A DNA stretch of 33,142 bases. Origin: Bacteroidota bacterium. GTDB lineage: Bacteria; Bacteroidota; Bacteroidia; JAADEI01; JALVCQ01. The notes below the pieces were generated by a model. That model was not told the origin of the DNA, ran no database searches, and was given only the letters and a program-made list of their open reading frames with translations. The stretch covers positions 1-33,142 of the forward strand of contig JALVCQ010000084.1 of NCBI GenBank assembly GCA_027009805.1, written 5' to 3'. A program made the position numbers and the translations under genes. How positions within the stretch are numbered: the first letter of the stretch is position 1; every line of letters begins with the position of its first letter. Positions 11,835 through 17,129 of the stretch are shown here, piece by piece.

Positions 11835-11844
11835 CGGTGAAACG

Positions 11845-11916
<72 letters not shown>

Positions 11917-12128: not shown

Positions 12129-13820
12129 ATGCGAAACTCCACAGTATCCCTCTGGATGGTGATGTTGCTTCTTGGCGTTTATCTGGCAGGTTGTAAGGGC
12201 GACTCTCAGCAGAAAGCGGCCGAACCGGAAACGGAAGAAGTCGGCTCAGAACCCGCGGTCACGTTGACCAGTGAAGAGATGGCCCGTGCCAAGCAGATTT
12301 ACTTTAATCTGTGTGCGGGATGTCATGGCGCTACCCGACGAGGTGCCACGGGACCTTCGTTGTTGCCCGACGGCGATGGCAAATTCCCCGCCACGAAAGA
12401 ACTGGGCACCGAGGCGCTGACTCATATCATCATGAACGGGCTTCCGGGGGGGATGCCCGACTGGGGAAAACAGGGCGTGTTGACGGAGGAAGAAGCCAAG
12501 CTGATGGCCAAATACCTTCAATTGCCGCCCCCCCCGATTCCGCAAATGACGATGGAAGATGTCCGCAAGTCATGGAAAGTTTACGTGCCCGTGGAAGCGC
12601 GTCCCACGCGTCCGGAAACGCAACGCAACTGGAAAAACTATATGGGCGTGATCTTGCGGGATGCGGGAAAAGTGGCCATCATAGATGGCGACACCAAAGA
12701 GCCTGTTGCTGTCCTCAATACCGGTTTCGCCGTCCATATCTTGCGTTCGTCCAGCTCCGGACGATATTTTTATTCTATTGGGCGGGATGGAAAAGTCACG
12801 CTTATCGATCTGTGGCCTGAAAAACCGCAGATTGTGGCTGAAGTAAAAACGGCTTTCGACGCCCGATCGGTCGAGGTGTCGAAATATAAAGGGCCGCAAG
12901 GTGATTTTCGAGACAAATACATCATTGCCGGCGGATATGTACCTTCTCATTTCGTGGTGTGTGATGCCATGACGTTGGAACCGCTTAAAATGGTGAGCAC
13001 GAAGGGAAAAGTGCTGGATACGGGTGAGTATCTCGAAGAGGCCCGGGTGGCCTCTATTGTGGCCTCCCACCACGATCCCCTCTGGGTGGTCAACGTCAAA
13101 GAGACCGGTATGGTGTGGCTGGTGGATTATTCCGACCTGGATAACATAGAGCAAAATATCACCAAAATCCCTACCGCCCGATTCCTTCATGACGGCGGAT
13201 GGGACCATTCGGGCAAATACTTCTTAGTGGCCGCGAATGCGGAAAACAAAATCGTGGTGATCGACGTGCCGAATAAAAAGCTGGAAAAAATCATTGAAGT
13301 GGGCACCAAGCCTCATCCCGGACGGGGCACCAATATTCAACATCCGAAATACGGCCATCTGTGGCTGACAGGCCATATTGGTGAGGGGCTGGTGGCCGCC
13401 ATTGCCACCGACCCCGGCCCTCATCAGTGGGAAGTAGTCGAGAATGTTCGCATGCCGGGCGTGGGCGGCGGCACCCTCTTTATCAAGTCCCACCCGAAAT
13501 CAAAACACGTGTGGGTGGACCGCCCCCTCAATACCAACGAGGACCTGCAACGCACGATTTACGTATATGATGCCGCCACCATGGAACTGAAGAAAACACT
13601 CAGGGTGCCGGATCGATACAAAGCTCGCGCCGTGCATCTGGAATACAACAAGAACGGTGACGAAGTGTGGGTGTCGGGGTGGGCTAAAAAAGACGACGAG
13701 TCGGTGTTGCTGGTGTTTGATGACAAAACATTGGAGCTGAAAAAGGAAATTACCGGAGACTGGCTGGTTACGCCGACCGGCAAATTCAATGTTTACAACA
13801 CGGCCCACGATATTTACTAA
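12129..13820 (+). CDS. nirS: cytochrome cd1 nitrite reductase NirS (lipoprotein signal)
   Basis: 563 aa; c-heme CAGCH (12312-12326), RRGATGPSLLPD, GMPDWG, RDAGKVAIIDGDT, GFAVHILRSSSSGRYFYSIGRDGKVTLIDLW, RFLHDGGWDHSGKYFLVAANAENK, KPHPGRGTN, LVTPTGKFNVYNT. Confidence 0.95.
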   Translation: MRNSTVSLWMVMLLLGVYLAGCKGDSQQKAAEPETEEVGSEPAVTLTSEEMARAKQIYFNLCAGCHGATRRGATGPSLLPDGDGKFPATKELGTEALTHIIMNGLPGGMPDWGKQGVLTEEEAKLMAKYLQLPPPPIPQMTMEDVRKSWKVYVPVEARPTRPETQRNWKNYMGVILRDAGKVAIIDGDTKEPVAVLNTGFAVHILRSSSSGRYFYSIGRDGKVTLIDLWPEKPQIVAEVKTAFDARSVEVSKYKGPQGDFRDKYIIAGGYVPSHFVVCDAMTLEPLKMVSTKGKVLDTGEYLEEARVASIVASHHDPLWVVNVKETGMVWLVDYSDLDNIEQNITKIPTARFLHDGGWDHSGKYFLVAANAENKIVVIDVPNKKLEKIIEVGTKPHPGRGTNIQHPKYGHLWLTGHIGEGLVAAIATDPGPHQWEVVENVRMPGVGGGTLFIKSHPKSKHVWVDRPLNTNEDLQRTIYVYDAATMELKKTLRVPDRYKARAVHLEYNKNGDEVWVSGWAKKDDESVLLVFDDKTLELKKEITGDWLVTPTGKFNVYNTAHDIY

Positions 13821-13859
13821 GGCAGGCCTTTACTCAGAGGTTTCCAAAGGGCTTGTGTC

Positions 13860-15839
13860 ATGAAATATGTAATTGTCATGCTGGCAATGGCTATTGGTGT
13901 GCTTTATGCGCAGCCGGTGGCCGATACGGTTCAGCTAAAAGACGCTGTGGTAACGGCCCAATCCGTACCCGCTGACCCTTCCCAGTCATTGTATCGGGTG
14001 GAAGTGGTTCCGGCCGCCATGTTTCAGAGAATCGGTGCCACTCATGCAGCCGAGGTGCTTTCCCATCTGTTGTTTGTCGATGTATCAGAGGCGACCACGC
14101 TGGGCGGCTCTGTATCGATGCAGGGGATTGACGGCCCTCGGATTAAAATAATGGTGGACGGCGTACCTGTGGTGGGGCGGTTGAAGGGGAACATTGATTT
14201 GCGCCATTTACCGCTTTCCGAGGTGGAACGGATAGAGGTCATCCGAGGGCCGGTGTCGGCGCATTACGGCACAGACGCGGTGGGAGGGGTGGTCAATATT
14301 ATTACCCGTCAAAATAGAAGGGCGGGACTTCGGGGACGGGCCTGGGGATTATATGAAAGTGTCAATGCTTTCAACGCCGGTTTAGCGGTGGGTTATGGCT
14401 TTGGAGCGCATGATGTGCAAATAAGCGGTTCGTTTCATGACTTTAAAGGGCTTTCCACCGATCCGGAGGTGGCGCGAAGTCTGAACTGGAATCCACGCAA
14501 CCAGTTGGGCGGACAAGTCACCTATCGTTATGCGCTTTCGAATGCGTTGGACGCGGGTTATACCGGCCGGTATTTTCAAGAAATGATGCAAGAGTTTGGG
14601 GAAGCAGATCCACATGGTCGGATTCGGGATAAGGACTATTACACCTCTCGTATGGACCATGTGTTGCGTGTCCAAGGAAATGTAGGGAAGGCTCATTATG
14701 TGGATGGATATGTAGCGCATCTGAGCTATCAGCGGTTTCATGATACCTGGAAGGTGGACCCGCAAACGGGGGATGTGACGCTGGATAGTCGGGATACGCG
14801 AGCAAAAAACAAAGTGAAATATACGCATGTGGGGAGCCGCACCCAGTTTGCCGGCCGAAGGAATGCACCGCTGCATTATGCCGTCGGCTATCAGACCGAG
14901 CATGAAACCACCGAGGGCGGCCGAATTGCCGATGGGAAGAAGCAGTATTGGACGGCGGCGGTGTTTGGAGGCGTGGATTATGCTTCCCTTCAGGGGTGGC
15001 GTGTTGCCCCTTCCATGCGACTGGTTTACAATACCGTTCACGGCCTGTTGGTAACGCCCTCTTTTCAGGCTTCCTATCGGTGGGCGCAGCGTCATCGGGT
15101 AATCGTCTCGTATGCGCGTGGATTCCGATCGCCTTCCCTTAAGGAACTTTATCTCGACTTCCGCATCAACGCCGGCCCCATTACTTATGTGATTGAAGGG
15201 AATAAAGACCTGAAGCCGGAGACGTCCGATCATTATGAGCTGCGGTATGAATATCGGGGGCCTATTAAGGGTGGCTTTGGGGGCTTATCGGTGGAAGGGT
15301 TTTATAACAACGTAACGGACCTCATCGCCCTGAGTCCCATGCAGAATTTCCATCGTCATTATATCAATGTGGAAAACTATCAGTCGGTCGGGGGGAATCT
15401 CATCGGTCATTATCAACGGGGCGACGCGCTAACCATCAAGGTGGGCGGCGGCATCCTGGGAAGATATAACAAGTTCTCGGAAAATGAAGAGGCGGAGCGC
15501 TTTCTGTTTTCGCCGGAGGCGGTGGTGGACGTCACGTATCGCCTCCCTGTGGTGCACGTCCTGGTGAGTGCTTCTTACAAATACAGCGGACCACGACCGG
15601 GATATGTGCTTAATGAGCAGGATGAGGTGGTGGAGGCGGTGGTTCGGGATGCTATCCATCGGATGGACGTGAGCATGAGCCGAAAATGGTGGAACGATCG
15701 GATTGAGGTGGTGTGCGGCATCAAAAATCTTTTTGATGTCCAAAACGTCGAGTCGTTTTCCGAGGTCGGGCAGGCACATGCGCGGGATATGGTGTTGTGG
15801 GGGCGGAGCTATTTCGTTCGAACAAGTTTTTCCTTTTAA
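13860..15839 (+). CDS. TonB-dependent outer-membrane receptor
   Basis: 659 aa; plug-domain motifs (IKIMVDGVPV, VERIEVIRGPVSAHYGTDAVGGVVNIIT), barrel, RGFRSPSLKELYLDF, GIKNLFDVQN, C-terminal aromatic YFVRTSFSF. Confidence 0.92.
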   Translation: MKYVIVMLAMAIGVLYAQPVADTVQLKDAVVTAQSVPADPSQSLYRVEVVPAAMFQRIGATHAAEVLSHLLFVDVSEATTLGGSVSMQGIDGPRIKIMVDGVPVVGRLKGNIDLRHLPLSEVERIEVIRGPVSAHYGTDAVGGVVNIITRQNRRAGLRGRAWGLYESVNAFNAGLAVGYGFGAHDVQISGSFHDFKGLSTDPEVARSLNWNPRNQLGGQVTYRYALSNALDAGYTGRYFQEMMQEFGEADPHGRIRDKDYYTSRMDHVLRVQGNVGKAHYVDGYVAHLSYQRFHDTWKVDPQTGDVTLDSRDTRAKNKVKYTHVGSRTQFAGRRNAPLHYAVGYQTEHETTEGGRIADGKKQYWTAAVFGGVDYASLQGWRVAPSMRLVYNTVHGLLVTPSFQASYRWAQRHRVIVSYARGFRSPSLKELYLDFRINAGPITYVIEGNKDLKPETSDHYELRYEYRGPIKGGFGGLSVEGFYNNVTDLIALSPMQNFHRHYINVENYQSVGGNLIGHYQRGDALTIKVGGGILGRYNKFSENEEAERFLFSPEAVVDVTYRLPVVHVLVSASYKYSGPRPGYVLNEQDEVVEAVVRDAIHRMDVSMSRKWWNDRIEVVCGIKNLFDVQNVESFSEVGQAHARDMVLWGRSYFVRTSFSF

Positions 15840-15851
15840 ATTGAATACATC

Positions 15852-17129
15852 ATGCGTTACCTATCTCATCTAATCGTCACGACAGCGTTATTGGCCGGCG
15901 TTACGTGGTGGGTGTCGGCCCAGGAGTTGACCCTTTCGGGGGCGTTTCGTCCGCGCTTTGAACACCGTTACGGCTACGGCCAATTGGCTTCGCCGTCTCA
16001 ATGGCCTGCGAATTGGGTGTCGCAACGGACGCGATTAATAGCGGATTATCGTTCGGATGCGGCCGACGCCCGCATCGTCTTACAAAACGTACGGGTGTGG
16101 GGTGATGTGTCCACATTGAGCCGTTCTGATCGGTTTATTGCCTTTCATGAAGCGTGGGCGCGGGTGCCCTTATGGAGGCGGCTGAGTCTGAAAGTGGGGC
16201 GACAAGAAATTGTGTATGACGATCATCGCATCTTTGGGAATGTGGGGTGGGCGCAACAAGCCCGCAGCCATGACGCGGCGGTGTTGACCTACCGCTCGGC
16301 CGACCGGAAAACCCGGCTGGATGTGGGGGGCGCTCTCAACGCCAACAAGGAAGAGAAGTTTCGGAGCTATTATCCAAACACGGCGGGATATAAGGACATG
16401 CAATATCTGTGGTTTCATCGGGATCTGAATAAAGTCGGCGTGAGTGTGTTGGCGTTGAATGTGGGGCGCGAATATCCGGGCACGGCCGCCGATACTTTTC
16501 GGATTGACAACATGCAAACGCTGGGGGGACGTGTGGTGTATAAAGACAAAGGCCTCAGCGGTGGGGTAGCAGCCTATTATCAGGGGGGGAGGCAGGCCGG
16601 TAATGCTGTGAAGGCGTTTTATTATGCCGGAGAGGTGAAATACACCAAAAACGGCGTCACGGTGGGCGCGGGGCGCGAGTTCCTTTCAGGGAAGGCCACC
16701 AACGATTCCGGATCGGTGGTGAAGTCTTTTGCCCCACTGTTCGGGACCAATCATAAGTTTAACGGTTGGATGGACTATTTCTACGTGGGCACCTGGATGA
16801 ACTCGGTGGGCCTGGAAGACATTTACGGGGTGTTGTCGGTCAAGAAAGGCAAGACCGCGGTTACCTTGATGCCGCATCTGTTTCGGGCGGCCGCCGATGT
16901 GTATGACGGCTCGCAAAAGTTGTCTCGGACGTTGGGCACCGAAATCGACCTGAGCGTCAAGTATAAGCTGACGCCTTCGGCGGCGCTGGTAGCGGGTTTT
17001 TCCACGATGATGGCCACGGAGACGATGGAGGTGATGAAAGGTGGGAGCAAGGATGAGTTTAATCGGTGGGGGTGGATGATGTTGGTCATTCGTCCGCGGT
17101 TGGGACATTGGCGGTTTGAGGGGCGCTGA
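15852..17129 (+). CDS. alginate-export-like outer-membrane porin
   Basis: 425 aa with signal peptide; GAFRPRFEHRYGYG..SQRTRLIADY..VLQNVRVWGD..EAWARVPLWRRLSLKVGRQEIVYDDHRIFGNVGWAQQARSHDAAVLTYR. Confidence 0.8.
   Translation: MRYLSHLIVTTALLAGVTWWVSAQELTLSGAFRPRFEHRYGYGQLASPSQWPANWVSQRTRLIADYRSDAADARIVLQNVRVWGDVSTLSRSDRFIAFHEAWARVPLWRRLSLKVGRQEIVYDDHRIFGNVGWAQQARSHDAAVLTYRSADRKTRLDVGGALNANKEEKFRSYYPNTAGYKDMQYLWFHRDLNKVGVSVLALNVGREYPGTAADTFRIDNMQTLGGRVVYKDKGLSGGVAAYYQGGRQAGNAVKAFYYAGEVKYTKNGVTVGAGREFLSGKATNDSGSVVKSFAPLFGTNHKFNGWMDYFYVGTWMNSVGLEDIYGVLSVKKGKTAVTLMPHLFRAAADVYDGSQKLSRTLGTEIDLSVKYKLTPSAALVAGFSTMMATETMEVMKGGSKDEFNRWGWMMLVIRPRLGHWRFEGR

Follow-up and report, generated by a model that had tools for sequence, protein, structure and literature searches.

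A Putative Heme d1 Uptake System Linked to the Cytochrome cd1 Nitrite Reductase of Bacteroidota

The gene nirS is a genetic marker of denitrification. In the canonical nir cluster, as in Pseudomonas and Aquificota (nirS-nirN-nirJ-nirF-nirE and nirDLGH), it lies beside nor genes and is accompanied by the genes for heme d1 synthesis. Two groups of TonB-dependent receptors resemble the one described here: the heme receptors ShuA/ChuA, PhuR, and HmuR, which have a related barrel and plug and are found with HmuY (a hemophore that binds heme b in the systems characterized), and the vitamin B12 receptor BtuB. A third receptor, NosA/OprC, is a copper TonB receptor linked to nitrous oxide reductase; it likewise serves the cofactor of a denitrification enzyme, which is copper in that case and, as we propose, a tetrapyrrole in this one.

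Heme d1 owes its keto groups to NirF and NirC, which makes NirF essential, and both the action of NirN and the insertion of the cofactor take place in the periplasm (PMC13168839). In a survey of NirS, clades differed in the presence of d1 genes, and the main text mentions no import system or TonB receptor (PMC10999283). Our search of the open-access literature found no earlier description of heme d1 uptake. The Bacteroidota locus analyzed here encodes the same NirS, with the same ligand residues, as the canonical cluster, but the slot of the d1 genes is held by a gene for a TonB-dependent receptor.

The nirS Locus and Its Products

The window is the whole stretch of DNA that was analyzed, 33,142 nucleotides in length. 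The initial annotation described nirS followed after 39 bp by a TonB receptor gene and after a further 12 bp by a gene for a 425-aa porin, all on the plus strand, and these coordinates proved to be exact:

11,844–11,916, minus strand: tRNA-Met, between an amino-acid permease gene and nirS
12,129–13,820, plus strand: nirS, cytochrome cd1 nitrite reductase (563 aa), identified by Pfam, PDB matches, and ligand residues
13,821–13,859, plus strand: gap between nirS and the receptor gene (39 bp), with no recognizable terminator
13,860–15,839, plus strand: TonB-dependent receptor (659 aa), with Pfam Plug and barrel domains; a member of the nirS-linked receptor clade
15,840–15,851, plus strand: gap between the receptor and porin genes (12 bp)
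15,852–17,129, plus strand: alginate-export-like (PF13372) outer-membrane porin (425 aa)

The sizes of the two gaps, which are the basis of this reading, suggest that the three genes are co-transcribed. No FNR/NNR box (TTGA-N6-TCAA) was found upstream of nirS, and matches to this box in the window were at chance level, as were those obtained when the window was scanned for sigma-70 promoters and terminators.

The product of nirS matches Pfam Cytochrom_D1 with 386 bits (positions 2–368) and also has a cytochrome c domain. Its top PDB matches are NirS of Pseudomonas aeruginosa (E ~1e-160), whereas NirF is a far weaker match; the possibility that it is a mistaken NirN is ruled out by comparison of the NirS value with that for the NirN-like structure 6rtd (2e-39). 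The heme c site is formed by CAGCH (C62, C65, H66) and M109, and the proximal and two active-site histidines of the d1 site are H203, H354, and H396. These ligand residues are invariant in all 46 Bacteroidota-type NirS proteins and in all 36 others, which indicates that the d1 site of the Bacteroidota-type proteins is under selection. The protein is a genuine cytochrome cd1 nitrite reductase, predicted to bind heme d1 and to convert nitrite to NO. It is also a predicted lipoprotein with an LAGC lipobox (window 12,129–12,230). By a simple motif search, this property is shared by 43 of the 46 Bacteroidota-type proteins versus 6 of the 36 others, and all six of the latter are encoded at loci without local d1 genes.

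The receptor scores above the Pfam cutoffs for both Plug (69 bits) and barrel (86 bits). The highest NCBIfam scores of nirS-linked receptors are to the hemin and B12 receptor models, all of them below cutoff; for the window receptor these are 143.6 bits for BtuB (TIGR01779, its top NCBIfam score; cutoff 599.7) and 128.8 bits for the heme receptor model (TIGR01785; cutoff 316.85). Its AF2 model (pLDDT 83) matches BtuB (TM 0.83–0.87) and ChuA/ShuA (TM 0.80–0.81) in the PDB, and the Pfam domains together with the matches to BtuB and ChuA identify a plug and 22-strand barrel. BtuB is thus the nearest fold, but the window receptor falls far below the BtuB cutoff and is found in a nirS context, with no cobalamin context seen. 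It also differs from the heme receptors, in that it lies below the heme-family cutoffs, is linked to nirS, and has no recognized heme ABC importer nearby. When 10 of the other 12 TonB receptors of the genome were scanned with it, it was the only one that was hemin/B12-like. A copper role of the OprC/NosA type is ruled out by the scores of the relatives' receptors that were scanned, which reached at most 26 bits with the TonB-copper model versus 106–142 bits with the hemin model.

In six relatives' loci the receptor gene is followed by a gene for HmuY (PF14064; 52–58 bits in the three scanned) and preceded by one for P418, our name for a secreted protein of 418 aa that carries a T9SS sorting tail (L020/L067, 3822–5078; relatives in L050, L055, L060, L063, L069, and L087). 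Three further loci contain P418 or a fragment of it before the contig ends, so that HmuY-type proteins accompany nirS and the TonB receptor gene in nine loci in all. P418 and HmuY are homologous with a profile probability of 99.6%; the AF2 model of P418 is poor (pLDDT 48), so the homology rests on the profile comparison. P418, encoded between nirS and the receptor gene, is a possible candidate for a d1 hemophore. HmuY is absent between nirS and the porin gene in the window.

Heme d1 and Nor Genes in the Genome and Its Relatives

As stated in the initial annotation, the window contains no recognizable heme d1 genes (including nirDLGH and nirE) and no Nor genes. The first of these absences extends to the genome (2.0 Mb, rated 100% complete) for the three proteins covered by the genome-wide search, NirF, NirJ, and NirN; the statement for NirDLGH and NirE applies to the window. 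A search of the whole genome with the Cytochrom_D1 profile (PF02239) matched only NirS, and the genome therefore lacks NirF and NirN. No NirJ was found among the 10 radical SAM proteins that we read: eight are recognizable as other enzymes, and the remaining two reach at most 69 bits on the NirJ model, on which the best scores are 60–69 bits, the cutoff is 515 bits, and genuine NirJ proteins in contrast genomes score 351–407 bits. The absence of Nor genes, on the other hand, holds for the window only, because a search of the rest of the genome located norC-norB-norQ on another contig (C205); the organism thus encodes the step that comes next in the pathway.

HemB (PF00490) was not found in this genome, nor was HemN among its radical SAM proteins, and the organism is probably a heme auxotroph. 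Despite the missing HemB, the genome encodes aa3-type oxidases and cNor in addition to NirS.

Among relatives, genome-wide searches found NirF in none of 44 NirS-encoding genomes of Bacteroidota, Rhodothermota, and Kapaibacteria, and NirJ in none of the same 44. In four contrast genomes (two from Aquificota, one from Nitrospirota, and one from Campylobacterota), NirS, NirN, NirF, and NirJ were all found, which shows that the searches are able to detect the proteins in question. Most of the genomes compared are MAGs, but incompleteness as the cause of the missing d1 genes is ruled out by the agreement of 44 of 44 genomes and by a near-finished Rhodothermus-like genome (2 contigs, the main one of 3,261,604 bases) in which neither NirF nor NirJ was found. 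Two Bacteroidota genomes without NirF and NirJ (G468 and G491; loci L045 and L087) retain a NirN-like c-d1 protein, which would fit import of dihydro-heme d1.

Linkage of nirS to TonB Receptor Genes

We compared 83 nirS loci, 80 from a scan of public genomes and three that are Rhodothermus-like. A TonB receptor gene lies just downstream of nirS, with no d1 genes, in 44 of these loci (43 from Bacteroidota, Rhodothermota, and Kapaibacteria and one from Myxococcales). In 28 loci, nirN-nirJ-nirF-nirE directly follow nirS and there is no TonB receptor gene. The two never occur together, and both are missing at 11 loci; at six of these (L032, L076, L079, L088, L091, and L097) the sequence is truncated by the end of a contig.

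In Bacteroidota, Rhodothermota, and Kapaibacteria the receptor gene follows nirS directly, except at loci where P418 comes first (and, in one case, the porin gene as well as P418). The initial annotation had proposed that conservation of the three genes in relatives be examined. Conservation of the receptor gene is strict, in that it is present wherever a Bacteroidota nirS locus extends far enough downstream; the porin gene is kept less strictly, at about 18 other Bacteroidota nirS loci. The window genome encodes 13 Plug proteins in 2.0 Mb, yet the receptor gene is found at every long-enough Bacteroidota nirS locus, and chance is thereby excluded. Many Bacteroidota loci have the gene order norC-norB-nirS-tonB-porin-norQ-norD, in which tonB occupies the place of the d1 synthesis genes elsewhere; the nirN-J-F-E genes of d1 makers often lie inside norCB...norQD. 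The recurrent neighbors of nirS at 12 relatives' loci were nor genes and genes for the TonB receptor, the porin, an HHE/ScdA protein, and HmuY, and no candidate d1 enzymes were found among them.

In the NirS tree, the Bacteroidota and Rhodothermota proteins are grouped (support 99), and the TonB-linked NirS proteins of Kapaibacteria and of one Myxococcales, which lack d1 genes, are placed among other phyla. This scatter suggests that the linkage probably arose more than once, and the tree points to at least two, and probably three, origins of the TonB-linked lineages. When compared with 17 unlinked TonB receptors, the nirS-linked receptors form one clade (support 85, or 95 without the Myxococcales receptor) in a tree whose long branches limit the trust to be placed in it. 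The Myxococcales locus (L103, 281–4017) comes from a genome that lacks NirF and NirJ.

The remaining loci with neither d1 nor TonB genes (L072, L075, L098, L101, and L104) encode NirS proteins of Planctomycetota, Chloroflexota, and Hydrothermarchaeota. In one genome of this group that was searched throughout, NirF and NirJ were not found.

Proposed Heme d1 Uptake and Its Alternatives

The initial annotation suggested that the two outer-membrane proteins may import a metal, a porphyrin, or a substrate on which the reductase depends. For the receptor, the porphyrin option is clearly favored, in the form of heme d1 itself or a compound late in its synthesis; the porin probably acts separately. 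We consider it likely that these bacteria, in place of d1 biosynthesis, bring in heme d1 or one of its late precursors through the outer membrane and that NirS acquires it in the periplasm. The nirS-tonB(-porin) genes would then form a denitrification module in which an outer-membrane receptor stands in for the d1-making enzymes. The ligand, either heme d1 or a periplasmic compound late in its synthesis (dihydro-heme d1, for example), would be released by other denitrifiers, bound by the receptor, and moved to the periplasm; this ligand and this destination would differ from those of the known heme receptors. Because d1 insertion normally occurs in the periplasm, the receptor in the outer membrane would be enough, with no need for an inner-membrane transporter, and the lack of any recognizable ABC importer beside nirS agrees with this. 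Lipid-anchored NirS may take up heme d1 directly in the periplasm, since anchoring to the outer membrane near the receptor, as the lipobox suggests, would permit direct loading. The NO produced by NirS would pass to cNor, which is encoded elsewhere in the window genome and flanks nirS-tonB in relatives. More broadly, we lean toward the view that this is a dedicated heme d1 uptake system and that denitrifiers of the Bacteroidota, Rhodothermota, and Kapaibacteria are obligate scavengers of d1 leaked by their neighbors, with a lipid-anchored NirS charged directly by the receptor, to which secreted HmuY-like proteins able to bind d1 would deliver the cofactor in some lineages.

Alternatively, the receptor might serve heme-limited organisms by importing ordinary heme b (or a different porphyrin) with which both NirS and the cytochromes would be supplied. 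The window genome gives this reading some force: given the missing HemB and a receptor that is the only hemin/B12-like one among those scanned, here it may carry heme b too, and the HmuY proteins of known systems bind heme b. However, the linkage is kept where HemB is present (in G036 and in the Rhodothermus-like G065), and in G036 it is kept although hemA/C lies just downstream. General heme uptake would neither track nirS nor exclude d1 genes, and cytosolic use of heme b would require an inner-membrane importer, none of which was recognized beside nirS. We therefore regard heme b import as an unlikely explanation of the linkage.

A slightly less probable alternative is that d1 is made by a nonhomologous pathway, or that another heme occupies the d1 site, and that the receptor has an unrelated role (in the uptake of a metal, a siderophore, or B12). 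The NirS proteins of some Planctomycetota, Chloroflexota, and an archaeon without local d1 genes or a TonB receptor indicate that other routes may exist, Bacteroidota commonly carry TonB receptors, and BtuB is the structure nearest to this one in fold. Against this, the neighbors at the relatives' loci offered no candidate d1 enzymes, the three d1/active-site histidines are invariant, the copper model scores far below the hemin model, and the exclusion with d1 genes is strict. Finally, it is very improbable that nirS and tonB are functionally unlinked members of a frozen operon inherited once, because, although most TonB-linked NirS proteins fall in one clade, those of Kapaibacteria and Myxococcales have the same linkage elsewhere in the tree, and the TonB gene stays in place while the surrounding order varies (porin, P418 plus HmuY, norQD moved).

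Lutibacter profundi encodes NapAB, NirS, NorBC, and NosZ, yet pure cultures showed no anaerobic growth with nitrate (PMC5219744). Its failure to grow could be that expected of a d1 auxotroph, and could also have other causes. If nirS carriers cannot make heme d1 at the scale of a phylum, nitrite reduction by them would depend on their neighbors, and genome-based predictions and pure-culture tests, such as that of L. profundi on nitrate, would need to be re-read. Cofactor sharing would then govern a step of the nitrogen cycle. We know of no other heme d1 transport system, and the one proposed here would be the first.

The porin of the window scores 23.7 bits with Alginate_exp (PF13372), for which the Pfam gathering cutoff is 25.2 bits, and its close relatives score 45–58 bits. 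It probably has a separate, substrate-side function in the diffusion of nitrite or other anions, and would probably admit nitrite to the proposed module. In d1-making bacteria, alginate-export/OprD-like porins are encoded upstream of nirS (L070, L073, L100, and L102), and the presence of porins beside nirS in organisms that make d1 fits a role of the porin in supply of the substrate.
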